38,953 nucleotides of DNA, taken from the NCBI GenBank assembly GCA_025349905.2, contig MU624627.1, positions 1 to 38,953 of the forward strand, written 5' to 3'. Position numbers and translations under genes: made by a program. The DNA is from Blastocladiella britannica (Eukaryota > Blastocladiomycota > Blastocladiomycetes > Blastocladiales > Blastocladiaceae). Positions 9,177 to 34,859 of this stretch are shown one piece after another. A model generated the notes under the pieces. The model made no database searches. It worked only from the letters and a program-made list of their open reading frames with translations, and had not been told where the DNA came from. Within the stretch, counting starts at the first letter, position 1. Each line of letters opens with the position of its first letter.

Positions 9177-11085
9177 TCACTGGCCCGCAGATGAGGAGGC
9201 GGCAGGGGCAGCAGCAGCAGAAGCGATAGCAGCGGCCGGATCCCAACCGACAAAGAACCGGTCGACACACACGTCCTTGGAGCAATCGCCGCAGTCGCGC
9301 GCGGGCTTGACGCATCCGCACGTGCACACGGCAGCGCGGGTCCCTGTGGCGGAGGTAGCCCCATCGCCTCGGACCACCACCCGGACTTTGCGAGCGCGGC
9401 CGTTCCCATCTTCTTCGTCCCCATGAGAAAGACCCATACACAGCGGCCGGTCTTCCATGTCGCGGCGCGTGCGCTTCTTGGCGCGCGCACAGCACTGGCC
9501 GCCGCAGCTGGTGGAGGCGCTGCACGGGCAAGATATGGCGCAGTCGCCGCACGACGAGGATGATGACGTTGGTCCGCCGGCCGAGCAGCAGCACTGCTCT
9601 GGCGCCGGAACGGGGGGAAGAGGAGGGGAGATCGGTGCTTCCATTTCGCCGCCGCTGCAGCACGAAGGGCCGCAGGTGCAGCCAGACTCGGACGAGCAGC
9701 ACCCGGACGCAGTCTCCCCGCCAGCTGCGGTAGTCGGGCCGCAGCAGCTCGAGGTGGACGGAACCGAGACCGCCATCATAGCGTTGGGGGTGGTAGAGCA
9801 GCAGGAGCTTTGGGTGGGTGAGGTCGGTTTCGCACAGCAGCTGCCAGCAGCCGGAGGTGCGGGTGCCGGAGTCTTTTTCGTGCAGCAAGAGGATCCCACC
9901 GTAATGGTCTCCGGCGGCGACGTGGACGGTGTGGGCAATCCCAGGGCAATAGCTGGCAGCGTCGACCACACGGACGACGGCAACGAGTCCGCGCCTACCG
10001 CCCCAAGATCCGACATTGACGTTAAAGGGAACGGCAACGGAGGCAACGACTCAACCGGGAACAAGCCGGTGGTGATGGGTGACTGCAGCGACGCCGGGAT
10101 CGGCAGCGCGTACGGCAGAGCCTGGCCCGCGGCCAAAAAAACGCTGGTGATCGGGATCGGGCGCGGAGGGGCCGGGGACGGCGCGGTGATGAAACCAGCG
10201 GATGACGCCGATGAGGGAGCCAGCAGCATGCCGAGTGACCCGAGCACGCTGTGAGCGCAGGCGCAGTCCATTGAGGAGCATCCGGTCGGGGTGGGCGCGG
10301 TCGGATTGTCAGTGGCGGTGCAGCACAGGCAGCGCACGCCGGTCTTGGAGAAGCAGGTGCAGGGGTTGAGGAGGGCGTCGACTTTTTTTGGTGTGTTTTG
10401 GTGGTGAGTCCTTTTGTTTTTGCTGTTTTGTTGAACAACGACAAAACGTACGTGAGAAGCCAGGCGAAGACAATGAGACTGCTGCCAAAGAAGAAGCTGG
10501 TGGTTCCGGGTCGGCACTAGCTCGACTTCCACCACAGCACCCGCCAGTGGGCTTGGGCGAAGGAACAGCACTGATGGCACCAATTGTCTGGGTCCGAGGG
10601 GAGGGTTCCTCCGGCTGCACAGTCTGCTCGGGCTGCACGGACTCGGACGACGATGGGAGCGAAGAAGAGGCCGCCGGGGGCAATGATTCCGAAGAAGTAG
10701 AGGGAGGCACCGGTGCGGCAACGCCGCGGGGTGCACGTTTACCCTTGGCGGCCTTGGTGCTCGCGTCCAGGTACTCCCAGGTCACACCTCGGGCAAACGC
10801 GGCCGCGGCCACTTCGGCCGATTCCGCAGAGAGCATGGTCACTTTTTGGCCCAGTCCACCACCGGTGTTGTTATTATTATTGCCAGTGTCGCGATGGAGC
10901 ACCGTGGGGACGGCGATGGCAGGCGGGATGGCGGCAGCGGCCCTCGCAGAAGCGGACGCAGATGGGCGGCCTTTTTTACGGATCTCAAACAACTCCCGGT
11001 CGGCGTGTGCGCAGGTGGAGGTGCGGTGGCCGCGGATGCATGCGTCGCAGCTAAAGCGCAGCGGCAGGTCGGGGAGGACGAGCAT
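9177..11085 (-). CDS. copper-fist transcription factor with Cys-rich C-terminal half (about 612 aa)
   Basis: Exons 11085-10452 and 10381-9177 are joined by a phase-1 intron (GTACGT...AAAAAG). The N-terminus is a copper-fist DNA-binding domain: C13-x2-C16-x8-C25-x-H27 with the RGHR motif and KKGRP, which contacts the minor groove in this family (Ace1/Cup2, Amt1, Mac1). The usual Cys after GRP is absent (GRPSAS). Starting at the ATG five residues before the fist region fits the family, whose fist is always N-terminal. The second exon is packed with Cys clusters: CTCFSKTGVRCLCC, repeated SSCC or GSCC, CTCGPSCC, and CTCGCVKPARDCGDC. These are likely Cu(I)-binding switches in the nucleus. The gene is divergent from the biotin gene with 65 nt between starts. 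Confidence 0.85.
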
Positions 11086-11150
11086 GGCCTTTATGTGAGT
11101 TGGTTTGTCAGTACCAAAGACGTCTCTCATTATGTCTTGGACTTGAAAAA
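11086..11150. promoter_or_regulatory. 65-nt divergent promoter between copper-fist and biotin-synthesis genes
   Basis: The ATG of the copper-fist regulator (minus strand) and the ATG of the biotin fusion (plus strand) are separated by 65 nt. All upstream control of both genes must therefore be shared or lie inside a coding region. I see no clear TATA box. No copper-fist binding site is certain by eye. Confidence 0.45.
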
Positions 11151-13934
11151 ATGATCGCATCCATCGCAAGACATCGCAGTAGAGGGCGGACGCTGGTGTC
11201 TCTGTCTCTGGCAGCAGCACAGCAGTCGGTCCGGCCCGCACGTCACCTGCCGTTCCTCAATGCGCCCCACCTGGCCCCGACCATGGTGTGGGGAGCCAAC
11301 ACTGATGGTACTTGATACTTTATATTTGTTTCGGCAAGACCGACCACATTATTAACGAATGACTTAAAGTCGGCAAGACCCTGCTCTCGGCCCTTCTCTG
11401 CCGATCCCTCACCCTCAATGACACGCGCGGCCCCTCGTCGTCGTCGTCTGCCACCATGCCGCTCGTGCACTACATCAAGCCGGTGCAGACCGGGTTCCCG
11501 GCCGACTCGGACGCGCGCTTTGTTGCCCGGTTCGCACCCGCCACCCACCGCACCCACGTCATGCACACCTTCCGGGATGCCGTTTCTCCACACCGCGCCG
11601 CTGCCGCCGAGGGCCGATCGCTCTCGGACGCGCAACTGGTGGCTGATCTGGAGCATGAGCTGGGAAAGACCGAGGCCATTGCGCGCGCGTCGGGATTCGC
11701 GCACTCGGGTCGCGGATGGGCGATCGTCGAGACCGCGGGCGGCGTGCTCAGTCCCGGTTGCTCTGGTATGGTCCAATATGGCGTTGGGGAACACTGGCGT
11801 TTATCTCACCCCATAAGGGACAATAGGCGCAACCCAGGCCGATATCTACCGGCCCCTCCGGCTCCCGGCAGTGCTGATCGGTGATCCGCACCTCGGCGGC
11901 ATCGCCACCACCTTGTCTGCCGCCGAGTCGCTCCTGGCCCGCGGCTACGACCTGGACGCGGTGCTCCTGTTCTCGGGCGACCACGCCAACCACGCGATCT
12001 TGCCGCGACACTTGCCGGCCACCACTGCGGTGCTGGCGATCCCGCCACCGCCGCCGCGAATTACGTCCGATCCCGATGCCGATGCTGTAGTGCTGGAAGA
12101 GTACTTTGCAGCGGTAGCGGCCGCCGAGGGTCAGGACGCGGTGCGGGTGCTGGAAGACGCACACGCGCGCCGGATGGATGTGTCGCGGACCATGGCCCGC
12201 CGCGCCGCCGACGTGGTGTGGTACCCGTTCACGCAGCACGCGACCGCGGGTCCGCCGCAGGTTGTTGACTCGGCGTACGCCGACGATTACTTGGTGCACG
12301 AGCCAGTGTCGTCCTCGGCGTGGGGTCGCGACAAGGGTGGGGCCACTCGGCTCACGGACGCGCCAGCCTCGTGGTGGACGCAGACGCTGGGGCACGGAAA
12401 CCCGGCCTTGTCCCGCGCCGCTGCTGCTGCCGCCGCCCGGTACGGCCATGTGATTGCCCCCGACACGGCCCACGCGCCCATGGTCGACTTGGCCATCGCC
12501 GTCCGCAACACGCTGGTGCCTACCAACATGCGCGCCGACGGACGCGTGTTCTACTCTGACAATGGGTCCACCGCCACCGAGGTCGCGCTCAAGATGGCGT
12601 TGCAGTGGACTGCCAAGCAGGCGGGCGATTTGGACGACGCACCATCAAACCAGGAGAATGGACCTCGGCGCCCCCGCCATCGCCGCATCCTCGGCACCAT
12701 GGGCAGCTATCACGGTGACACCATGGGTGCCATGGACGCGTGCGCGCCGTCCGTGTTCAACACCAGTGTGCCGTGGTACGCCCCGAAAGGCGCGTGGATC
12801 GACCCGCCGAGCATGCGGTGGACGCAAGGCCAGCTGGTGGTGACGATTCCGGCGTCGTGGGACCCGGTGTGGGGTGCGCGCGACGTGGTGCTGCTGAACG
12901 AGGACGATTCATTGTCGACCAAGACTACCAGCACTCACCTGGCGCTGTTTGACGAGGAGCGAATCGATACCGACCCGCTGGCGGCCATCTACGCGCAGCA
13001 CGCGCGTGCATTATTGACCCGCGACGCGCGCGAGAACCCGGACGCGCCGCTTGGGGCCCTGATTATCGAGCCGGTGATCCAGGGCGCTGGGGGGATGGTG
13101 TGGGTTGATCCATTGTTTCACCGAGTATTAGTGCGCGAGGTACGCCGCGGCGACTGGAACCCAGAGCGGACCAATGTTCCCGCCGAAAGTGGAGCCCCTC
13201 GTGCAGAAGGAATGGACACGAGCTCAGGAGGGTGGGCCGGCGACATTCCCGTGATCTACGACGAAGTGTTTACTGGCTGCTGGCGTCTAGGCCCAGCATC
13301 GGTTTCGCACTGGCTCGAGCCGCCGGACATTGTGTGCTACGCCAAGTCGCTGACGGGCGGCGTCTTGCCGCTGGCAGTCACCTGTACCACCAGCGCGATC
13401 TTTGACACGTTCCTGGGCGACGACAAACTCAGTGCGCTTCTGCACGGCCACAGCTACACTGCCAACCCGGTGGCGTGCGCGGTGGCACTGGCCACGTTTT
13501 CGGAAATGGCGGCGCTTCCGACATACGACCGCGACACCCACACGGTGACTTCTGTGTGGGATTCAAAGGATGGCCGCGCCGCTGTCACCGCGCTGTCGCG
13601 CGTGCCCGGAATCCGCGGAGTCGTCGCCATGGGCACGGTGCTGGCGATCGAGGTGGCGCCGCTCGGTGGTAACGTGGACGAGGCTGGGTACAATGCCGCG
13701 GGCCACACCGCCGCCGCCGTGCATGCCATCACCACGGGTGCCCGCACTCGCGGAGGGGTATTCCTGCGGTCGCTCGGAAACGTCGTGTACGTGATGGCAT
13801 CGCACACCACACCACCTGCGCACTTGCTCGAAACGGTGGCGATTGTCGGCGCCGAGGTCGCGCGCGCTACGTCCAGTCCAGCGCATACTTCCATGTCGGC
13901 TGCAGCGCCTCCGCTCCACATTCCCATTGTTTGA
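11151..13934 (+). CDS. bioDA: bifunctional dethiobiotin synthetase / DAPA aminotransferase, mitochondrial (about 886 aa)
   Basis: Exons 11151-11307, 11370-11765 and 11827-13934 join in frame. The first 45 residues are Arg-rich and lack acidic residues, typical of mitochondrial targeting. The BioD half has the P-loop GANTDVGKT (about residues 48-56), split by intron 1, then ETAGGVLSP, and QADIYRPLRLP followed by GDPHLGGI. The BioA half starts near residue 300 with WYPFTQH. It has the cofactor-binding SDNGSTATEVALKMA, YDEVFTGCWRLG, and the PLP lysine in YAKSLTGG (about residue 691). Together the halves convert KAPA to DAPA (SAM as amino donor) and then to dethiobiotin (ATP, CO2). The same fusion is known in ascomycetes and plants (BIO3-BIO1). 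The stop is 20 nt from the convergent 7-helix gene. Confidence 0.95.
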
Positions 13935-13954: not shown

Positions 13955-15232
13955 TCACGTCCACCCGACCTTGAGCAACGCCAGGATCACCCGCCAGTGC
14001 GCAATCACGCACGCAAGGTACACGTGCATGGTCATGTCGGCGATCGCCGAAGACACCAGCTCGCCCTCGATCAGAATCAACCCAACGGTCCCCGCCATTA
14101 GTACCGTGCCCATGGCCGCAATTACCAGCAATAAACGCCGCCACAGTGCTTGAATGTCGCTTTGCTTTCGCCGCGCGCTTAAGGTGTTGCTGCTGGGTGA
14201 CCGCGACGGTATTAGCGTGTTGTTGTTTTTGTTGCTGCCAGGAGTGGCGGCAAGAGCGGCGAGGAGTCGGTTGGACGAAATGGACGTCGGGATCTTCGGT
14301 TTGCTGTGCTGCCCATTTGGTGCGTGCAATGACGATGGAGAGATGGGAAATGGGGGCGGCGCTTCTCCCATAGTGGACGTGGGATGGAACGTCTCGAGAC
14401 CCACCGTCGCTGCTGCTGCCGCAGGGTGGTCCAGGGAGGACCCGATCTGGGATGCCGGAGAGATGGTCGATGGTTCGCGCGAGGAGGCCGGTGATCGCCA
14501 CCCCCATTTCTTCAGGGTCCATGCATTGTCCTTGCCTGGCCGCAAGGGTGGCGAAACGGAGGCGCGGTGTGATGAGCCCATGACCCGCAATACTCGGAAC
14601 GTGGCCAGAGTCAAGATAAAGTCCACGGATCCGCCGATCACCACCGCTCCGGAGGACAGCAGGCTGAAGGTTTTGCCAACAGCGGGATCCGTTAAGAGGT
14701 GCTCGATCAGGGCAAATGCGCAACCCAAGCCGCCCAAAAGCATCACGAGGATGAGCAGGCCGTTGGACAATGTGCGAGTGTACCAGGGTGCGGCGCTGGT
14801 CGCAAAGACTGGATTGGTTCAGTGGATTTAGTGGCAAAACGAAACCAAGTGACAAAACGAGTTTCGTACCGCGAAACCGAATCACACTGCATCCAACCGA
14901 GATCGTCATTGAGATGCTGGCCGAAATGTTCCGGATCCCGTCTTGGACCAGGTATTTCCTTTGTGTATTGGGTTATGATTAGATCCAGATTCACGAGATT
15001 GAGAAAAAATGGACCATTACATCGGAACGGCACCAGTGAGGTAAGCCACGCCAGTCAAGTCCAGGACCAGGAGCGCAAGCATGCAAGCCGCAGCGCCGAT
15101 CGCATATCGGCGAGCCGAAGATCCAGCGGCGGAATAGATATGCAAAAGTGAGACCAGGATACTGGCAGCGGCAATCGCGGTATTCACCGACACAAAAATC
15201 AGGGCGATACTCGATTCGGACGGAGTGGTCAT
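13955..15232 (-). CDS. seven-helix membrane protein, tandem paralogue 1 (about 384 aa)
   Basis: Exons 15232-15021 (212 nt), 14958-14870 (89 nt) and 14808-13955 join in phase 2, then phase 1. Predicted helices lie near residues 9-32, 41-64, 80-98, 116-140, 148-175, 324-347 and 352-379. A polar 150-residue loop between helices 5 and 6 is rich in Ser, Pro and Asn. Conserved family motifs are ARRYAIGAAACMLALL, Q-D-x-I-R-N, APWYTR before helix 4, a VDFxLTxATFR end of helix 5, QALWRRLLLVIA opening helix 6, and MHVYLACVIAHWRVILALL in helix 7. Seven helices with a long third inner loop resemble G-protein-coupled receptors, but no known GPCR family motif is seen. Two paralogues with the same exon plan follow. 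Confidence 0.8.
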
Positions 15233-15339
15233 ATTTTTATATGTGTTCTTATTGTTGTCGCGTTGGATGGACGCATGTCGTTTGGAAGAATGCCGATCCG
15301 CTGGTTTGAATGAATCCAAAATTTAGGGGACAATTGTAT

Positions 15340-16694
15340 TTAATATACTCTCGTCCAACCGACCTTGAGCAACGCCAAGATCACCCGCCAGTGGGCAATC
15401 ACGCACGCAAGGTACACGTGCATGGTAGTATCGACGATCGCCGAGCAAATGAGGTCATTTTCGATCAGGGCCAGCGAGATCCCCCCGGCGACCAGTAAAA
15501 CGCCCATGGTGGCAATGACCAGCAGCAGACGCCGCCACAGCGCTTGAATATCGCCGCTCCGTTGGGTTCGTCGTTGCGCAAGAGCGGTGTTGCTGCTGGA
15601 CGCCCTCGCTGCTGGCAGTGGCGCTTGCGGTTTGGGAGCGAAAATGGCAGTCATGGAAGTCAGCAGCCGGTTGGATGAGCTGGATCGATTGTGGCGCTCC
15701 TTTCCAGTGGGAATGACAAGAGCAGCGGCAGTTGCAGCAGTAGTAGGGTCGAGCAATGGTGGCGATGCGACGACGAGAGAAGGTGATGGAGGTGGTGGAG
15801 GTGGTGGGACGCCTCCTCTCATGGTGGATATGGCCTGGAACGTCTCGAGCCCTACGGCCGATGTCGTTGGCGCCGCGAATTGGGTCGACCGGAAGAATAT
15901 CGATGGCCCGTGCGACAGTTTGTGTTGTGACCGCCACTTTGATGTCAGATTCCATGCACTCGTCCTTGGGGGCGCTGCCAAAGATGGCACGACAGTGTGG
16001 TGCGCTGATCCCATGGCACTGAGGATGCGGAACGTGGCCACGGTTAACACGAAATCCACAATCCCACCCACCACAATCATGCCTGCGGCTAGCATGCCCA
16101 GGAACTTTCCGTCAGAATAGGGGAGTTGCTCGGACTGCTCGATCAGGGCTAATGCGCATGCCACGCAGCCAATGAGCATCACCGCTACGAACAGGATCGT
16201 GGATACTTTGCGAGTGTACCAAGGTGCGGCGCTGGTTGCAAAGACTGTTTTTTTTAGAAGGTCCAGCTATGGGGGTTAACGAAAGTGGGGTAACTGGCTG
16301 ACCAAGGAGTGGCAAATATGCATACCACGAAATCGAGCAATACTGCACCCAACCGAGATCATCATTGAGATGCTGCCCGTGAAATTTCGGATCGCGTCCT
16401 GAACCAGGTAAGTCCTGTATTTGAGTGTGTGATTAAACTTGGGATACATGTATGTTTAAATGATATGCGCAGTGCAAATTACAATCCAAGGAAACCATTC
16501 TTATAAAATATGGCCGTCAAGTCCAGGGCCAAGAGCGCAAGCATGCAAGCCGCGGCGCCAATCGCATAACGGCGTGCGGAAGTTCCGGTGGCAGATCGGA
16601 TGTGCGAAATCGAAACCAAAATACTCCCAACGGCAATCGCCGTATTTGCTGCCACAAAGACCAATTCAATATTTGTTTCTGGTGATGTTGTCAT
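15340..16694 (-). CDS. seven-helix membrane protein, tandem paralogue 2 (about 401 aa)
   Basis: Exons 16694-16483 (212 nt), 16414-16326 (89 nt) and 16244-15340 have exactly the exon 1 and exon 2 lengths and phases of paralogue 1. Sequence similarity is high in all helices: TSARRYAIGAAACMLALLAL, VQDAIRNFTGSISM, TSAAPWYTR, VDFVLTVATFRIL, DIQALWRRLLLVIATMG and MHVYLACVIAHWRVILALL. The loop between helices 5 and 6 is more divergent. It has a Pro run (GGVPPPPPPPSPS) but shares the island VGLETFxxxSTM with paralogue 1. It is clearly a recent tandem duplicate. The conserved loop island suggests a binding or modification site on the cytoplasmic side. Confidence 0.8.
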
Positions 16695-16789
16695 TAATGT
16701 GGTTTATCCAATTGCTACTTGAATGGATGTCAAGAATGTTTTGCATAATAGTGGATCTGTTGAAATGAATTAGGGGTACAAGTATATGT

Positions 16790-18025
16790 TCATGCAGGAA
16801 GGTGCCTTGTCATGATCAGCGCCAACACCAGCCGCCACTGCGCGACCACGCACGCCAGAAACAAGTGCATGGCGGTATCGGCCATGGCAGTTCGCAACGG
16901 ATCATCTTCCATCACCAAGTAACTGGTCAGCCCACTTATCGCCGCCACCGCCATGCACGCTGTTAGCGTCACTAACCGACGCCAGATTGTAGTGGTGGTG
17001 ACGAACGGGACTACGGCCTGGAGCGAGTCCGTTGCCAGCTTGGCCAGGGATGCCGTGAATTGTCGATGTTGGTTCTTTACAGCCGAATGAGACAGATTGA
17101 GCGATGGAGGGTGTCGAAGTCCGCCGCCATTGGAATGCCCAGTCGCGCTCAAATGGCTATTGCTTTCATGGGCAGCAGGAATAGCAGCATGACCTGAGAG
17201 CGAGAGAGGCTGGGACAGATCGCCGCCGCTCCTCCACTCGGACTCGACGGGGGCAAGGGAGCCTGACTTGAATGCCGACATGGACACCAGCATGTGCCGA
17301 TGGTCTCGCGGCGGCCCGTTGTCGCCGGCACCGGCCACTCTCCCTTTATGTTTTCGGTGCTCTTCTATTTGCCGAATCACCAGGAACGTGGCCACCGTCA
17401 ATGTCAAGTCCACGACCGCACAAAGCACTACGCTGCCGGTAGTGAGAATATCGGCGTACTGGGACCATGATCCCGAGTCCAGTGTGAGCGACAGGAGAGT
17501 CACTGTGGCCACGACTGCGCCTTGAAGTAGCATGAGCGCGAGGACCACTATGTATCGCGGCCGCGTGTACCATGGTGCCAGCGTTCCCGAAAAGACTGTA
17601 TGGTTTTATGGTAAGTGTCGGTTGTTGTGGATCTAAAAAAAAAAATATCATGGGAATACCTCGAAATCGAGCAACGCTCAACGACACGGCCATGGTCGAT
17701 GCGGCCGTCGTCATTAAGTTCCGGATCGCATCTTGCGCGATTTGATTCCTGGATTATTTCCACGATCAAATTCCCAGGAGTCAGGACATTATGCCCAGAT
17801 CCAATCCAATAAGAGGAAATAATAATACAAGGCCACCAATCCGGAACCAGCGCTGATTGCAAACAAGTCGTCGGCGAGCAGTGGAACCAGTGCGCATCCG
17901 GCGCCGATCGCGTAAAGACGAGCTGTTGATCGAGTCTGGGATCCATGAACGAACGAGACGATTATAATTGCTGTTGCCAGCACTGCGTTGGTGCATTCGA
18001 CTTCGGTGGCAGCGGAAGAGATCAT
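16790..18025 (-). CDS. seven-helix membrane protein, tandem paralogue 3, divergent (about 363 aa)
   Basis: Exons 18025-17829, 17748-17660 (again 89 nt) and 17595-16790 keep the phase 2 / phase 1 intron plan. Shared motifs are TARLYAIGAG, IAQDAIRNL, LAPWYTR, VDLTLTVATFLVI, TIWRRLVTLTACM and MHLFLACVVAQWRLVLAL. Helix 1 is shorter and helix 4 differs most, so this is the oldest of the three copies. The 5-6 loop is His/Ser-rich. It shares a 181-nt divergent upstream region with the W-repeat gene at 18207. Confidence 0.75.
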
Positions 18026-18206
18026 GGGGTGGGGTCAAATAGTGGGAACTTAAAGAAGTAGGAGATCTTGGATAGTTACAACTGATACTGGTCACTGATC
18101 CGGCCACTCCAGTTCACGATGAAGGGAAACTTCTGCCCCTGGACTCGCCCTGAGGAAAGAAGTACGAGGTGCACGGCGGCCTCTCTTTCGTCAATCAATC
18201 AAAAAA

Positions 18207-20207
18207 ATGATAGAGCTTATTGTTGACCTGGTCTTCTGCCACGCCATAGGCGATGCCAAGTCCGAGACGTACCTCCCACACGCCTGGTTCAACCTGCTCA
18301 TGTCGGCACCTTCAACCACGGTTCCACGGTTCCTCGGCCTGCTTCTCACCCAATGCGGCGCGGTCCTTCCGAAATCCACCTGGGGCCGCAACATCTTGCC
18401 GCTCTCGCTCCTGGACACTGCGCACTGGGTCCTGCCCCGTGATACATTTATTGCGCGCGCGGGCGCCGCCGAGGCGTTTGCGTCGCGGGCAGTCGCCGAT
18501 AATAGTAAGCCACACCTGGATTGGTGGGTCACGCACATGGACCCAATCGCCATCACGGCGTCGATCGTGGACGTGGCGTCGGCTGCTGGGTACCCGGAGA
18601 TGCTGGACTGGGCGTGGGCCGAGTATATGCGCGAAAGCGGTGGTCAAGTGTCGTCGTTCCCGTGCTCCCGCCGAGCGATTGACGGCGCACCCAACACCGC
18701 GACGCTCGACTGGTGGTGGAAAAAGCACAGGCAGCACGGCGCGCCGTTCGTGTACGTGACGGCGATTCACGCGGCGCTCGTGGACCAGAAGATGGATTTG
18801 CTTGGGTGGTGGCAGCAGCAAGAGCGGTGGACGACGACCCAACAACAGCCCAAAGCAGATGACGACGACGAGCCCACGTACGAGCTCACGATTGCCGTGA
18901 TCCGCCGGTACAACCCGTTCGCCGCATATGGGTCGGAACTGAGCGCGACCTCCGACGCCAACATTGGCGACTTGGTGCTGATGGCCGAGGCCGGAAACCT
19001 GGCGTCGCTCGAGTGGTGGGGTAACATGGTCGCCCAGGGCAGGTGCGCGCTCATTTCGCTTGAAACCAACGACGTGTTTTCGAGCCCGCTCGAGACGTGC
19101 GCCGTCAGTGACATTGCGATCTTGGCATGGTGGCTGCGCATGCACGTTCAGGTAAAGCTGCCAATGCCCGATATCCGTACCATGTTGACGGCCGCGACCA
19201 AGGCCGGCCGCGCCGATACCTTGGAATGGATCTGGACGCATGTGGTCCTTGCCGGCGTGGCAGAATTCCGTCATCCACCGATCCTGGAACTGGAACGCAA
19301 CCGGCGCGCAGTGGCCGCGTGGTGGTTTGAAGATGAGCGGATGAATTCCCCTCTAACAGACCAACCACCGCTAGCAATGACCTTGTTATGGAAGTCGACC
19401 CCGACCGACACGCTCGCCGACCTCGAGTGGTGGTGGAACTTGCCGCAGGACTGGCCCGATGTCGTGGCCATCGCCATACACCGGCCGCTTGATTCACCCT
19501 CAGTGGACGTTCTGGAGTGGGCGTATGGCCAGCGGCAGCCTGATGGCTGCAGCATCCTAATTGGATGGGGGGCCGTGTTCCAAGCGGCCTGGGACGGTCG
19601 CATGTTTGACACGCTTGATTACCTTGCCTTGCACCACGCGTCGCGGGTCCGCAACTTGGGCGACTTGGCCGGTACCGCGCCGTCTCGGCTCGAAGCTGCT
19701 GTTATCAAAGGAGGCGACAAAGAAAGTAATGATTTGCTGGAATGGATGTACCGATACGCGGACAAGCTCCCGATCCCACCTGCAGCCATTGCGCACGTCG
19801 TGTACCGCGCGCATCGTCCGGCATCTCAGAGTAGCCCGATCGATCCAAAGACAATGGAGCGGGTTCAGTGGCTTGTGACCCGTACGGCAGCACTCGGAGT
19901 GCGTGTGGACATGGCTTCAGTCACGCACCAGCTGTGCATGGAGTTCTGGGACGACGCGGCGCCGGCGATCCGCACGTTAGAGTGGTGGGCGACTCACGGC
20001 GGGCAGCGGTCCGTGCACGTGTCACGATCGACCATTGAGCAGTTGCTGCGCAGCGCCAGCAATATCGGGCGCCTTGCTGGACTGCGGTGGATCGTGGACC
20101 AGTTGCGTCCTGGTGGGATCGTAACGGTGGATGATCCGACCGATCCTGAGCTGGTCGACAAGTGGGATCAGTTTCGGCGAGTTGAATTGCTCTCGCACTT
20201 AAGGTGA
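18207..20207 (+). CDS. W-rich ankyrin-like repeat protein (666 aa)
   Basis: This single-exon ORF has an N-terminal region resembling the F-box-less start of the 33147 gene (IVDLVFCHAIGDAKSE). It then has many repeats with cores such as LDWWV, MLDWAWAEY, TLDWWWKKH, SLEWWG, ILAWWLRMH, TLEWIW, DLEWWW, VLEWAY, LLEWMY and TLEWWATHG. Small A-x-x-G motifs precede most of them, as in 489-1421. Spacing is less regular than there, with a low-complexity Gln/Asp insertion near residue 215 and some longer insertions. No membrane span or enzyme signature is visible. A protein-binding scaffold role is inferred. Confidence 0.85.
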   Translation: MIELIVDLVFCHAIGDAKSETYLPHAWFNLLMSAPSTTVPRFLGLLLTQCGAVLPKSTWGRNILPLSLLDTAHWVLPRDTFIARAGAAEAFASRAVADNSKPHLDWWVTHMDPIAITASIVDVASAAGYPEMLDWAWAEYMRESGGQVSSFPCSRRAIDGAPNTATLDWWWKKHRQHGAPFVYVTAIHAALVDQKMDLLGWWQQQERWTTTQQQPKADDDDEPTYELTIAVIRRYNPFAAYGSELSATSDANIGDLVLMAEAGNLASLEWWGNMVAQGRCALISLETNDVFSSPLETCAVSDIAILAWWLRMHVQVKLPMPDIRTMLTAATKAGRADTLEWIWTHVVLAGVAEFRHPPILELERNRRAVAAWWFEDERMNSPLTDQPPLAMTLLWKSTPTDTLADLEWWWNLPQDWPDVVAIAIHRPLDSPSVDVLEWAYGQRQPDGCSILIGWGAVFQAAWDGRMFDTLDYLALHHASRVRNLGDLAGTAPSRLEAAVIKGGDKESNDLLEWMYRYADKLPIPPAAIAHVVYRAHRPASQSSPIDPKTMERVQWLVTRTAALGVRVDMASVTHQLCMEFWDDAAPAIRTLEWWATHGGQRSVHVSRSTIEQLLRSASNIGRLAGLRWIVDQLRPGGIVTVDDPTDPELVDKWDQFRRVELLSHLR

Positions 20208-25308: not shown

Positions 25309-28300
25309 TCAGCCCCACGGGTTCTCCTCTATGCCCGCGCCCGCACCAGCACCAGTGCCAGTACCGCCAATATGGCTCCCGCCGCTGCCCATCGACGTCA
25401 TGCTCATAGCATCCAAGGGCCGCCGCGACAGTGACGCAGGCGATCCGCCGCCCAGGATCGACCCAGGTGTCGCGAGCATAGGACCACCAAAACCGCCGCC
25501 GCCGCCGTGGGCGACGATACCGCCGTCGTCCGCCGCTCCCCACCCACCGTCGCCGCTACCCACCGCGGCCGCTGCTGCTGTCATGGCCGCATGCTGGTTC
25601 GCCACATGCTGATTGTGCGCACCCACCGAGGTGGCTGCTGATGAAGTGGTAGATGGAGAGTCGCCTGGCAACGGCCGTCTCAGCGGCATCACTGGCCGCG
25701 AGATGGGTGACGAGGCTGCTGCTGCTGGCGATGGGGATGCCAGCGGCGCCGATTTGATTGGCGGAGAGACCACGCCGGCCACATCGTCGCGATGCAGCCC
25801 AAACTGCGACATTTGGAGCGCCACCACCGTCTGGGTTGCTGCCTTGTCGCCGCCACTCGGGTCGGCTTGGATGATGGCCATGGCCACGTCGAGTGGCGTC
25901 TGCATAATTTTACAAGTCAGTCACACCCCTCAAAACAAAGAAAAAAAATTGGCATGTACCTGACCACGCACGTCCTTGGCGTCATGTGGAGCACCGGCAC
26001 GCCCCACCAGCCGATAGATCATGCTCGAGTTGGCAGCCGATGCGGCATAGTGCACGGGCGTCCACCCGTCGCGGTCAGCAGCAGACGGACTGGCGCCCCA
26101 TTGCAGGAGGAACTCGGCCGCAACATTGTTTCCAGCGCGAATGGCCTCGTGCAAAGCAGTGCGGTACGCGTGGGTCGGGTGCTGCCAGTCGACGACAGCG
26201 CCGACCGCCAGTAGTGCCAGCGCGCGCGGGAGAGCGCCAGCGCGGATCGCGTCCCAGAACGCCTCGTGGGTAGATGGCGGCCCGCCGCCATCTACGGCCG
26301 ACTGTGCCGACGTGAGCGGCGCCAGCACGTGGTCGCGATCGACCCATTCGCGCGCCACGTATTTTTTACGCAAGTATGCTTCGCGCGTCGCGCGGTCGAC
26401 CGACGGCTCGATCCCGATGACTCCGGCCTGTCGGTGCAAGTACACGGCGTTGACGGCGTCGTTTCCGAGCGCGCACATGATCCCGACAATCTCGTCGTCC
26501 CACTTGTCGAGAATCAGCGACCGCGTCTTGGAGACCGCGGTGCCGAATCCGCGGTGGATCCCCGAGCATTCGATGCACAGAACCACGCCCAGGTTGATGG
26601 CCGCCCATTCTGGGTCGCTCTGCCCGCAGTCGCCGCACACCACGTTGCCCGCGGTGGCCAGGATCTCTGCCACGCGCGCGCGATGGTTGGCGGTCGCACG
26701 GTTGGCCTCGAGAATCGCGGGGGACACTTCCATCGTGCCATTGCCGCTGCTGGCGCTCAATGCGCTGCCGCCGGCGGCTATGCTGCCCGATACTGATCCC
26801 GAGAGCTTGTGCTTGTGCTTGCCGTTTCCGACCCCAAGCATTGGTACATCGGGCGACGTGGCGAACAACGCGCCGCCGATCGCTTTTTGCAGCGCATCGA
26901 TCCATGCCGACATGTCCTCTTCGGACTCGGCTTGCAGTGTATATTGTCTGATTTTTTTTTTTTTTTTTTCGTTAGTTTATTCAAGCGACAAAAGCAAAAA
27001 GTAAACGTACTTGCTGGATGAAATGATTTGGAATGCAAAGCGACGCTCTCCAGCCGCAGGCTCGCACGCCTTGACAGTCGAGAGGCCTTTTTAAGAAATG
27101 ATATCATTGGTGAGGAATTTGATAGCAGAAAAATAAGAGAAATTTGAGCGTACGCAAGTTCACGGCCACAGTCGGCTCTTCCTCCTTGTCTCGCGACTGG
27201 TACACGAGCAGCTCGCCGCGGATCGTGAAATACCGACGCGACCACGTGGTGACGCGCATGCGCTGGCCCTGGTTCTTTTTCAGCAAGTACCCAGCGCGGA
27301 ACACCTGCTCGTCCGGCGGCCGGTCCACCACATCCCAATCGTCCGATTCGTGCGTATCGGCTGGTGACGATGCTCGAAGCGCCGGGGACGCGGATTTGGT
27401 CGGCGGGCTCGGGCCCTTGAACGCATCTGTACACAGGATGTGATCAGCTCCAATTTTTTTTTTTTTTTACTCGTGGTGAAAGTGAATTGATAATGTACCA
27501 AACATGCCCTTCTGGAGCGGATCGTACGAGTTGTCCGCGTTCAGCAGCAGCTTTGCACGCAAGGCCTCGGCCTTGGCCATCTGGGACTGGGCGTCGGCGG
27601 ATGCGCGTCCAGCAGCGGTCTGAAACTGCTCGACACGCGGCTTCATGAGCTGGTTGAGCAGGCCAATAGTCTGCGAGTGGAGTGAGACGCTGATCCCGAG
27701 CCACTCAAACGTCCGGGTCATCAGCTCGGGCTTGCGGGCGGCAGCAGCAGCGTTGAGACGGGTCGCGAACGTGAGCGCAGCCTCGTGGAACGTCTTGCGT
27801 GCCGCGGCCACCTCTTTTGCCGACTTGGGGATCGCTCCGTCCCCGGCTTTCCGGTCCAAGTACTTGTCGAGCGCGGCATCCGCAGCTTCCGACGCCTGGT
27901 TGAACCGTTTCCGCGCGTCCTTGATTCCGGGCGCCGTGTCGGCGACCAGCTTGTCGAGCGATGCGAGCACCACGTTGTTGGTCAGCTCCGCGTAATGCGT
28001 GTACATCGACCGGTACGACTCCAGTTCGTCGGTCAATCGGTTCTGGAACGAGTCCCATTCGGCGTCGCCGTCCGACAGCACCCGCGACGTGCGCAACAGG
28101 TCTTCGGAGAACAAACGGTGCTTTTCGACCAGCACCCGGATCGATTCCAGGTGCGCGCGGCCGCTCTTGGAGACTGACCGAAGCATGGCCTCGTACCGCC
28201 AAAACGCGGCCTCGGCCTCGTCCAGGGTTCGCCGGTGCGTCGGAGGGTCGGTGTAGCAGTCGCGCAAGTTGAGTAACGGCCATTTCAGGGGTTTGGTGTT

Positions 28301-28372
28301 ATTGTATCCGCCAGCGCTCGGCACGGGTGAAGCTGCACCGACTATCCCACCATCGATCGGTGAATTGGACAT
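25309..28372 (-). CDS. BAR-PH-ArfGAP-ankyrin protein (ACAP/ASAP-like, about 933 aa)
   Basis: Exons are 28372-27499, 27426-27154, 27086-27011, 26947-25960 and 25899-25309, all joined in frame. Residues about 25-270 form a helical BAR domain. A PH domain follows at about 333-430 (AGYLLKKN, WSRRYFTI, ending in the WIDALQ helix). The ArfGAP zinc finger is C512-x2-C515-x16-C532-x2-C535, with the arginine finger in CSGIHR (R540). Ankyrin repeats lie at about 640-755 (TALHEAIRAG, GWTPVHYAA, GQTPLDVA). The C-terminal 170 residues are Ser/Ala/Gly-rich and disordered. The protein should sense membrane curvature and phosphoinositides and stimulate GTP hydrolysis on Arf at endosomal or plasma membranes. 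All key ArfGAP residues are present. Confidence 0.93.
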
Positions 28373-28527
28373 TTTTTGTCTTGTTATTGGATTTGGTGCT
28401 TTATTTGCTACCGATATTGGACGAGGCGGGGCGGAGGGTGTACTCGAATACGCTGGCTTTGTGCTCGCTGTAAACTTTTCGGTTGGGAAGAGCGATCGTT
28501 TTTTTACGCCACTCGACCATCACACCA

Positions 28528-31873: not shown

Positions 31874-33111
31874 TCAACTAGCCGACGACGATGCGGCCGA
31901 CGCCGCCGCGGGCCATCCGAGGTACCCGGCCGCTTGCAGCGCCGCCCGCACCTGGTGAAGCGCAGCGCAATGGGACCGATCCTGACGCCAGTCGGGCGTT
32001 GGCGCCGCAATGCTTCGAGCGGGGGCCAGTCGCTTGACGGCCTCCAGTAAATGGACTGCCTCGGTTTCATGGTCCACGCGAGGCAATGGCCGGTGCATTG
32101 GAGTTGTTGATGATGAGGTTCCCATTGCTGCTGCTGCTGAAGTGGCGAGCTCGTGTTGTTGCTTACTGGCCACTATTGTTGCAGGACGTGAGCGAAAGGT
32201 GAAAGGAGGACCAAAAAAAAAAAACGCACATTGGCTCCCGCGCAGCAACTCCAACAACACGCTCAGGTCCTGGGACCGGCCGGTCACTGCGCGCCGCATC
32301 AAGATCGGGTGCTTTTTGCACGTCAGTACGCGACGGCACGGCTCGGTTCCGGGCGGGTCCACCACCCCGCAGTGCTTGTCAGGATCGTACGGCGGCGGGA
32401 TCTTGCCTCCACGGGTGTTGCGGCCATGATTTCCACTCGTCTCGGTCGCTGCTGCAGCATCCTGGGCAGACGAAGAGCCATCGATGGTGGCAGTTCGACT
32501 GCGCTTGGACGGCGGCAGTTGGTGTTGGGCGTCGCTCTCGGACGTGTTTTCTGTGGTTTTGTCAAATGAAAAGACATAAATGAATGAATGCAAATAAACG
32601 CACGCCTCGAGGCAGGCTTCCGCTTCCGAGCAGGTGCCAGTGTCATCTTGGCCACCGCCTGCACGGTCGCCGTAGTAGGGAGATGACTTGGAGCCGGAAA
32701 CGGTGTGGCGTTGCCATTCACACCCATGCCGTTACCGTGACCGTTGCTACCAACCACCACGGCTCCCTCTGCGGTCATGGGCAGGTCAAAGTCCAGATCG
32801 CCCAGCAAGTCGTCCATGGTTGCAGAGAGGGCATCATTATTGTCATTTCTGTCCAGCATGGGCTCGGCCGCGGCCGGGATCGCATTGGCTGGTACCTCCA
32901 TTGCTGTTACCATTGAGCTACTTGGACGATTGAAGGCAGCGATGTTAGTAGATGCTTTGGCTGCTTGTGCACGAGCAACAGCCATGGCGACGGCTCGCTG
33001 GCACCGCTGCCGGTGTCCCGACGCGACCGAGACCAGCAAGGAGCGGTGGCATTGAGCACAGACCAGGATATCGGGATCGGAAATGGCTGCGGCGGGCGGT
33101 CGGGTCGACAT
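31874..33111 (-). CDS. SGF73: Sgf73/ataxin-7-like SAGA subunit (about 375 aa)
   Basis: Exons 33111-32604, 32550-32230 and 32172-31874 join in phase 1 (both donors GTGCGT). An N-terminal C2HC zinc finger (C18-x2-C21...H33-x3-C37) matches the ZnF that anchors Sgf73 in the deubiquitinase module. The SCA7 domain spans about 222-275: YDPDKHCGV, then PCRRVLTCKKHP (zinc ligands C230, C241, C248, H251), RRAVTGRS and a terminal helix. A basic stretch (ARKRKP) separates the two. The protein would tie the deubiquitinase module to SAGA in the nucleus. The second intron is a multiple of three, so the unspliced frame stays open. Its start is 35 nt from the divergent W-repeat gene. Confidence 0.88.
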
Positions 33112-33146
33112 TCTTTAACTCCTCTTTGAAAGAGCTCTTGGTGAAA

Positions 33147-34859
33147 ATGATTACCGACGTCGTCTCCCGTATTCTGGATTTTGCCGTCGCGCGGCCCCGG
33201 AACGCCAGTGACCTGGTCGCGGTCCTGCAAGTCTTGCCGCGTGCCGCCACCTCACTGCAATTGGTCCCAAACGCACTCCGACGTGCCGTCCCAGGCCTCG
33301 ACCCGCAACTAGCCGCCAAACACAACCACGCGCACTTGCTCCCATTGTACCCGCGCGGGCTCGTTATGGACCAATTTGCCGCAGTCCTCGAGTGGATTAT
33401 GGTCCACAACGACTTGGCCATGCTCGAGTGGTGCTTTGCCCAGCTTGGGGAATCACCAGCGCAGTCGGTATGGACCAGCGCACGAATCCGAGACGCAGTC
33501 GGTGCCTCTGGTCACCCTGCCGTCCTTGAGTGGATGCTGGCTCGATTTCCCCAATTGGAAACCGACCGGTTCTGGCACTGTTATGTCCAATCGGCTGCAG
33601 GCTGACAAGGGCATGTCGCCATTCTCGAGTGGTACGAGCAACACCGGCCCGGAAGCTCGTTTTGGATGTATGCAGTCACCTCTGCTTCGAAACTGGGCCG
33701 CATCTGTGTCCTGGAACTATGGTGGCAGGGTTTCCGCCCAGGTGTGCTCAACGCCTCAACGTTCCGAATGGAATGGGAGGAAGCGACTCGGAACCTGCTG
33801 CAGTACTGCCACCTCGAGCTGCTGGATTGGCTGTGGCACCAAGGTTTGCCGGAATGGCGGTCAGCACCCAAGCGCATGGTCGACGTAGCGTGCAGAGGTG
33901 GCCGGTTACACAGCTTGGAATGGGCCTGGGCGCTCTACTTGAGTGTCGACGAGCCGACCCGCAACGGCAGCATTGCCCTAGATCAGGCGACAGCGATCCT
34001 GAGTCAAGGACTCGAGGAGTTGCTTGAGTGGACCGAATTACAATTGCTCAAACATAAACCGGCCCAAATTGTCCCTATGGCACGGTGGTCCAAGCACATG
34101 CAAGTGAGCAGCCAAATGACCGTCGGCTACGCAGAATGGTGGTGGGCCAAGAGCGCGCAGTACTCGTGGTCTCTGGAGTGGGTCAATTCCCTTGTCCATT
34201 TCGCAGCCCTTTTTGGCCGTGTCGACTTGTTGGACTGGGCCTGCTACCGTGCCTCTGCTCTTGTCCGAAAAAGTACTGTCGACCTGGTTTACAATGCCGC
34301 ACTCAATGGAATCACCCCCATGTTGCAGTGGCTACTTGACCATCAACATCAACTTGAGCCCTTTGTGTTCCCGAAACTGTCGCGCGAAATTGCCATCCGA
34401 ACTGCTTGATATGGGAACCTGGAAGCGCTTCGCTGGTGGCACACGCGCCACCGCCCACTGTCGGGTCGCATCCTCATGTACATTGTGCGCGAGGCCACAC
34501 GCTCGTCGTGCTTGCCGGTGCTCGAGTGGTGGCGGGACGAGATCTTGGCTGCGATTCCGCGCGGGACCGAGTGTTATCCGCGGCCGCGCGATCTGAAATT
34601 GGTCCTCGCCAAGTGCACGTCCATTCACACCATCATGTTCTGGAACCAGGTGATCTTGGATCGCGGGTACCGGGTTCCGATCTTTTCTGTTTCTGAGGCG
34701 GTTATGGCAACGAGTCAAGACGATCAGGTCGCGGCGCTCGAGTATTGGTGTATTTCAGCTGGTACCGCGGATCGGAAACTGGTGCAGGTGGCTCGTGAGT
34801 GTGCGTTATCGCAGAACAAGATGGTTGTCGTTGCGTGGTGCAAATCCATTATCTCGTAA
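33147..34859 (+). pseudogene. W-rich ankyrin-like repeat gene with two in-frame TGA codons
   Basis: One frame from the ATG at 33147 to the TAA at 34857-34859 (571 codons) encodes continuous W-rich repeats: VLEWIMVHN, MLEWCFAQL, ILEWYEQHRP, VLELWWQG, LLDWLWHQG, LLDWACY, MLQWLLDHQ, ALRWWHTRH, VLEWWRDE and ALEYWC. It is interrupted by TGA at 33603 (SAAG-stop-QGHVAILEW) and at 34407 (IRTA-stop-YGNLEALRWW). Both stops fall just before the G-[HN] that opens a repeat core. No intron with usable phases and length removes either one while keeping the conserved core. The open frame on both sides argues for a young pseudogene. Readthrough is the alternative. Confidence 0.65.

Follow-up and report, generated by a model that had tools for sequence, protein, structure and literature searches.

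According to the accessible text of a 2025 classification of fungal G-protein-coupled receptors (GPCRs), class D receptors of the Ste2 type are reported to be exclusive to Ascomycota, class C receptors are enriched in Blastocladiomycota, and 141,666 seven-helix proteins in 1,969 clusters stand unassigned; DUF6534 proteins, for which a GPCR function was proposed, make up 96.22% of the largest of these clusters (PMC12842992). The array described here lies at positions 13955-18025 of the window, which is the whole 38,953-base contig C88 of the Blastocladiella britannica assembly (15.26 Mb in 624 contigs). Its genes A (18025-16790), B (16694-15340) and C (15232-13955) are adjacent on the minus strand, comprise three exons each, and are part of a family with at least 13 members in this genome, among which they are the only clustered ones found. 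Computed helices, membrane orientation, kinship, conserved cytoplasmic Arg and Trp residues and the pattern of selection suggest that the 13-gene family encodes GPCR-type seven-helix plasma-membrane receptors, a reading to which we assign a probability of roughly 0.6. Within the 2025 scheme, the family may fall among the 1,969 unassigned clusters, for the ten largest of which the accessible text describes domains (PMC12842992).

Kinship, topology and predicted fold

The three genes of the preliminary description, which was confined to the window, are joined by at least ten further members on other contigs. The genome was searched member by member and then with a consensus and a profile. Gene D, on C392, repeats the plan of the array, with exons of 215, 89 and 800 nucleotides (nt) and introns in phases 2 and 1. 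Queries with D and A retrieved E (C323), which lacks exon 1 because the contig ends there; E in turn retrieved F (C132), G (C149) and H (C200), and G or F retrieved I (C142), J (C112), K (C451) and L (C350). M (C15) appeared weakly with G (E 0.016) and was confirmed by the consensus and profile searches (E 8.6e-6; 52 bits). The consensus search (35 candidates scored, a lower bound) recovered all 13 members together with a relic at C305:15682-15765, an apparently dead gene copy in which 28 residues around transmembrane segment (TM) 7 are 75% identical to gene C and interrupted by an internal TGA. Beyond these it yielded one unclear locus (C13:14185-14346, E 0.014, one TGA), which is left out of the 13-member count. 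Two earlier matches to B, on C86 and C220, fall in its loop and were discarded. The exon models of E to M were built in this analysis from sequence alone.

Common descent of the 13 members is established computationally, through a common intron position together with profile scores. Specifically, a GT-AG phase-1 intron directly follows the motif R-[FVL]-[RKQ] at the end of TM3 in 13 of 13 members. Leave-one-out profiles of A to L, each built from the 11 others, score the held-out member at 99.5-195.2 bits, compared with at most 40.9 bits for any of the 2,000 versions of each member that were shuffled locally; these decoys keep local composition and therefore hydropathy too. Among 1,787 open frames of the fetched DNA, the best one at a locus outside the family contigs, the 7tm_1 locus of the genome, reaches 7.7 bits, and the four 7tm_3 loci within that set are absent from the 60 matches listed. 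The length of the middle exon varies: A-D have 89 nt, F-K 82 nt and L 83 nt, and M has 77 nt with the exon borders placed here, E being left out since the contig end cuts it. The 89-nt middle exon of the array thus fits a subfamily and not the whole family. Intron 1 is apparently in phase 0 in F-K, judged by eye, and less surely in F and H, where the donors are untypical.

Core identities among A-L range from 15 to 66%. The tree supports the groups A-E (98/94) and G-H-I-J (98/98), its deeper forks are weak, and L, K and M have long branches. The proposed duplication, which may be lineage-specific, is supported by B and C, recent tandem duplicates (support 100/100) within a 13-member family that also has a relic. 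Between their cores, nonsynonymous divergence (dN) is 0.247 and synonymous divergence (dS) 0.761, a ratio of 0.32, and in the loop the values are 0.533 and 1.222; by these sequence-derived rates B and C are under purifying selection, weaker in the loop.

Hydropathy gives seven peaks at matching places in A, B and C, as previously described, with one extra weak hydrophobic window in loop 5-6 of A (mean 0.97) and B (mean 1.04). Summed over members, Lys plus Arg against Asp plus Glu number 29/0 in loop 1-2, 49/4 in loop 3-4, 94/12 in the flanks of loop 5-6 and 18/2 in the C-terminal end, as against 8/20 in the N-terminal end, 16/18 in loop 2-3, 8/22 in loop 4-5 and 6/17 in loop 6-7. This charge alternation across the 13 members therefore indicates seven helices with the N-terminus outside and the C-terminus inside, an orientation that a signal-peptide-like stretch at the start of K (by eye) fits. 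Conserved sites comprise an Arg at the TM3 end (13/13), an Asp in TM2 (12/12), an Asp in TM5 (10/13, replaced by Asn in H and J and by Ser in F), a Trp near the TM7 end (12/13), His or Arg in TM7 (13/13) and an Asn in TM1 (7/12). The claimed motifs are present, and so is the long, variable loop between helices 5 and 6, which spans 109-155 residues in A-D with 18-26% Ser/Thr; of the His/Tyr-rich helix 7, the His is not general, since the TM7 position holds His in five members and Arg in eight.

The predicted structure of D, a single model of moderate confidence, contains seven long helices, in agreement with the charge counts. In structure comparison its nearest fold is the class D pheromone receptor Ste2 (PDB 7ad3, 7qbc, 7qa8), the three entries scoring about 2-4 Z units above AdipoR2 at 5-6% identity over the aligned part; AdipoR structures score about equal to class A GPCRs. 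Seven helices with an outer N-terminus are supported, and this one moderate-confidence model points to a fold that may be GPCR-like. As a rough control on a protein that differs from D, a weak single-sequence AlphaFold2 model of B gave no GPCR among the 50 matches listed. A Foldseek comparison with viral models gave no match with an E-value of 0.001 or lower; some of its top entries carry the name GPCR.

The absence of a recognised family, as previously described, holds in Pfam and Protein Data Bank (PDB) sequence searches, which gave nothing convincing. Pfam queries comprised A-C, loop-trimmed A-D with their TM5-7, 12 cores, 14 TM5-7 sequences (25 of 28 families shown), the consensus and seven TM5-7 segments; none of the matches is convincing, and none exceeds its cut-off where a cut-off was shown, which in the 12-core and 14-sequence scans was for the first member only. 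The lowest E-value, E1-E2_ATPase for E (0.0037; 17.3 bits vs a cut-off of 28.1), is surely chance and was rejected. Weak matches to receptor families, which would serve as leads only, include Frizzled (0.01) and STE3 (0.15) when TM5-7 of the consensus was the query, Frizzled (0.36) for the whole consensus, and Ocular_alb (0.015, E), Frizzled (0.046, K) and DUF6534 (0.059, A) for single members; the Ocular_alb match lies at profile positions 31-120 of 403, unlike TM5-7. In the PDB, query A1 returned no sequence at E 10 and query A4 two irrelevant ones, and viral contigs searched with A1 gave nine pattern matches with no relative among them. Protein searches through shared five-letter words returned only Blastocladiella britannica proteins; these searches are insensitive, having missed the deposited P0001, P0003 and P0004 although their genes were in the query, and it therefore does not follow that other fungi lack relatives. 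No title or abstract opening in the literature searched names this family. Finally, hhalign assigns probabilities of 0.1% against four of the genome's own 7tm_3 proteins (from 4 of 31 contigs) and 0.2% against its own 7tm_1 protein, compared with 77% (E 2e-5) in a control that set L, a distant member, against a profile of A-D.

Proposed function and rival explanations

As GPCR-type receptors, the proteins would bind an outside ligand within the helix bundle, perhaps with the TM2 and TM5 aspartates and the TM7 His/Arg, and would relay the ligand-induced change to the cytoplasmic face. There, the Arg at the TM3 end, the TM7 Trp and the basic ends of loop 5-6 could engage one of many heterotrimeric G proteins at the surface formed by TM3, TM5 and TM6, while the variable Ser/Thr-rich loop 5-6 may serve regulation. 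G-alpha domains exceed the cut-off on nine contigs (C229, C379, C27, C120, C202, C247, C314, C463 and C107), which seems many for a fungus, and 7tm_3 (class C) domains do so on 31 contigs, next to one clear 7tm_1 gene; the G-alpha and 7tm_3 numbers count contigs with exon-wise matches rather than checked genes. At the level of these matches, the G-protein machinery for such receptors is present in the genome. The 7tm_3 matches are also an observation in their own right, as a large set of class C loci within one small fungal genome.

Many chemoreceptor families are large, divergent and duplicating, and contain relics. The spread over several contigs, the identities of about 15-66%, the B/C tandem duplication and the relic would fit birth-and-death evolution of that kind. 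By analogy, and given the biology of a flagellated fungus, the family most likely serves to sense chemicals from the environment or from mating partners; expression in zoospores is our guess. To our knowledge, no chemoattractant receptor has been identified in flagellated fungi, which steer by chemical cues. Allomyces gametes, according to the accessible parts of the sources, are steered by a sesquiterpene pheromone (PMC7935092, PMC3834313). A tentative extension, to which we give clearly less than even odds, is that the family constitutes an undescribed fungal GPCR class with a fold closest to Ste2, perhaps its missing zoosporic kin, and supplies candidate zoospore or gamete attractant receptors, for example for sesquiterpene pheromones such as sirenin of the related Allomyces. 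With its 13 genes and their gene models, the family provides defined candidates whose ligands could be sought in yeast reporter strains.

The family could alternatively be a distant zoosporic offshoot of DUF6534, a seven-helix superfamily of Basidiomycota, a kinship that was suspected before the searches from sequence patterns (the TM5 Asp, the Arg after TM3 and the TM7 Tyr) and that we regard as unlikely. PF20152 is the best match of the loop-trimmed TM5-TM7 of A (E 0.059, 15.0 bits), residues 8-84 of which align to profile positions 2-62 of 80 in the register expected beforehand, and the superfamily has itself been proposed as a new fungal GPCR class (PMC12842992, accessible text). However, 15.0 bits is far below the 28.2-bit cut-off, the match occurs in one of 14 TM5-TM7 sequences and in none of 12 whole cores, and other families score equally low by chance; a genome search with PF20152 gave nothing, its controls being silent too. 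Such a kinship, if true, would change the family tree and hardly the mechanism. Another alternative is that the proteins are transporters, lipid enzymes or scaffolds, like receptors in bundle shape only. The failure to match any known receptor family and the AdipoR scores on a par with class A receptors are compatible with this, and the intramembrane Asp residues (TM2, TM5) with the TM7 His/Arg could make a polar site. Yet the outer N-terminus, the strongly basic cytoplasmic loops, the invariant Arg at the TM3 end, the long variable loop 5-6, the expansion of the family and the lead of the three Ste2 entries over AdipoR2 all count against it, and a non-receptor function appears improbable on balance.

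Two further explanations carry very little weight. Seven helices and an outer N-terminus would also suit microbial-type, retinal-binding rhodopsins (PF01036), a candidate that was rejected and is now barely credible: none of 12 TM7 segments (M left out) contains a lysine, and therefore no retinal Schiff base can form, and Bac_rhodopsin is absent from the Pfam matches shown. Gene-prediction artefacts or decaying pseudogenes might be suspected from the truncated deposited model of C and from the internal TGA of the C305 relic; against this stand the open frames, the same exon plan in four genes, conservation across 13 loci and the B-C core dN/dS of 0.32, on which this explanation was rejected as very improbable.

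Gene models of the array and other genes in the window

The extent of the array, 13955-18025, is exact as originally given, and so is the three-exon plan: all three genes have a middle exon of 89 nt, the first exon is 212 nt in two of the three (197 nt in A), and all introns are GT-AG, in phase 2 and then phase 1. The exons are as follows.

17829..18025, minus strand, gene A exon 1 (TM1-TM2), 197 nt
17660..17748, minus strand, gene A exon 2 (TM3, ending in ARFR), 89 nt
16790..17595, minus strand, gene A exon 3 (TM4-TM7, with the long loop 5-6), 806 nt with stop
16483..16694, minus strand, gene B exon 1 (TM1-TM2), 212 nt
16326..16414, minus strand, gene B exon 2 (TM3), 89 nt
15340..16244, minus strand, gene B exon 3 (TM4-TM7, with the long loop), 905 nt with stop
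15021..15232, minus strand, gene C exon 1 (TM1-TM2), 212 nt
14870..14958, minus strand, gene C exon 2 (TM3), 89 nt
13955..14808, minus strand, gene C exon 3 (TM4-TM7, with the long loop), 854 nt with stop

Model A is identical at every residue to deposited protein P0004 and model B to P0001, and model D is likewise identical to a deposited protein. For C, the deposited counterpart is P0003 (332 residues), which diverges from residue 323 onward, after DIQAL, and loses TM6-TM7. The uninterrupted frame is the better model because helices 6 and 7 are conserved with B and A, and the frame departure in P0003 is likely an annotation error.

Elsewhere in the window, three plus-strand regions (486-1421, 18123-20207 and about 32952-34859) encode proteins rich in repeated WWW or WFW-type motifs. 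Three pieces were compared with Pfam: one matches Ank_4 above cut-off (E 8.3e-6) and the other two match nothing. The proteins perhaps form a divergent ankyrin-like repeat family. On the minus strand, 10309-11256 encodes a copper-fist DNA-binding domain (E 4.6e-17), and the overlapping frame 9177-10781, very rich in cysteine clusters and without a Pfam match, is perhaps the tail of this copper regulator. The plus-strand gene at 11363-13934 combines AAA_26 (2.2e-7) with a following Aminotran_3 (2.2e-41) and is presumably a fused biotin enzyme of the BIO3-BIO1 type. The minus-strand gene at 25930-28519, with BAR_3 in one frame, ArfGap and ankyrin in the next and a PH piece below cut-off, is one that we take to be an ACAP/ASAP-like Arf GTPase-activating protein.

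Comparison with described receptor systems

Ste2, the class D1 alpha-factor receptor of ascomycetes, would have the nearest fold to that of the family, as judged from one predicted model of moderate confidence. In the accessible text of its description, Ste2 is characterised by a TM7 LPLSSMWA motif with a proline, a TM6 proline and a Gln at TM3 position 50 (PMC8942848). Measured against these features by inspecting the alignment by eye, the family lacks LPLSSMWA and conserved TM6 and TM7 prolines and carries Arg rather than Gln at the TM3 end; it also comprises 13 genes and belongs to a non-ascomycete. DUF6534 (PF20152) is likewise a fungal seven-helix family without a known ligand, matched weakly by one member; this match lies far below cut-off and demonstrates no sequence kinship, and the consensus GPCR calls in the accessible text of the 2025 classification are all from Agaricomycotina (PMC12842992).

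Class A (7tm_1, PF00001) gave no match for A-C, loop-trimmed A-D, the 12 cores or the TM5-7 results shown. An acidic residue before the Arg at the TM3 end occurs only in K (1/13, by eye), NPxxY occurs in 0 of 12 members, and the TM2 Asp and TM3 Arg lie 40 residues apart in B and 38 apart in G, a spacing that we presume to be longer in class A. Class C (7tm_3, PF00003) is also of seven-helix type and present in the same organism; A-D are devoid of a large outer domain, and descent as a class C relict was rejected on the hhalign probability of 0.1% to the genome's own 7tm_3 proteins. Adiponectin receptors belong to the PAQR family, which is defined by conserved zinc-binding histidines; the present family has no conserved histidine outside TM7, where five of 13 members carry one, and no PAQR match is among those shown. 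Collectively, the missing class A and class D sequence marks would lower the case that the family is a Ste2, not the case that it works like a GPCR, and distant kinship with Ste2, if true, would trace class D pheromone receptors back to zoosporic fungi.

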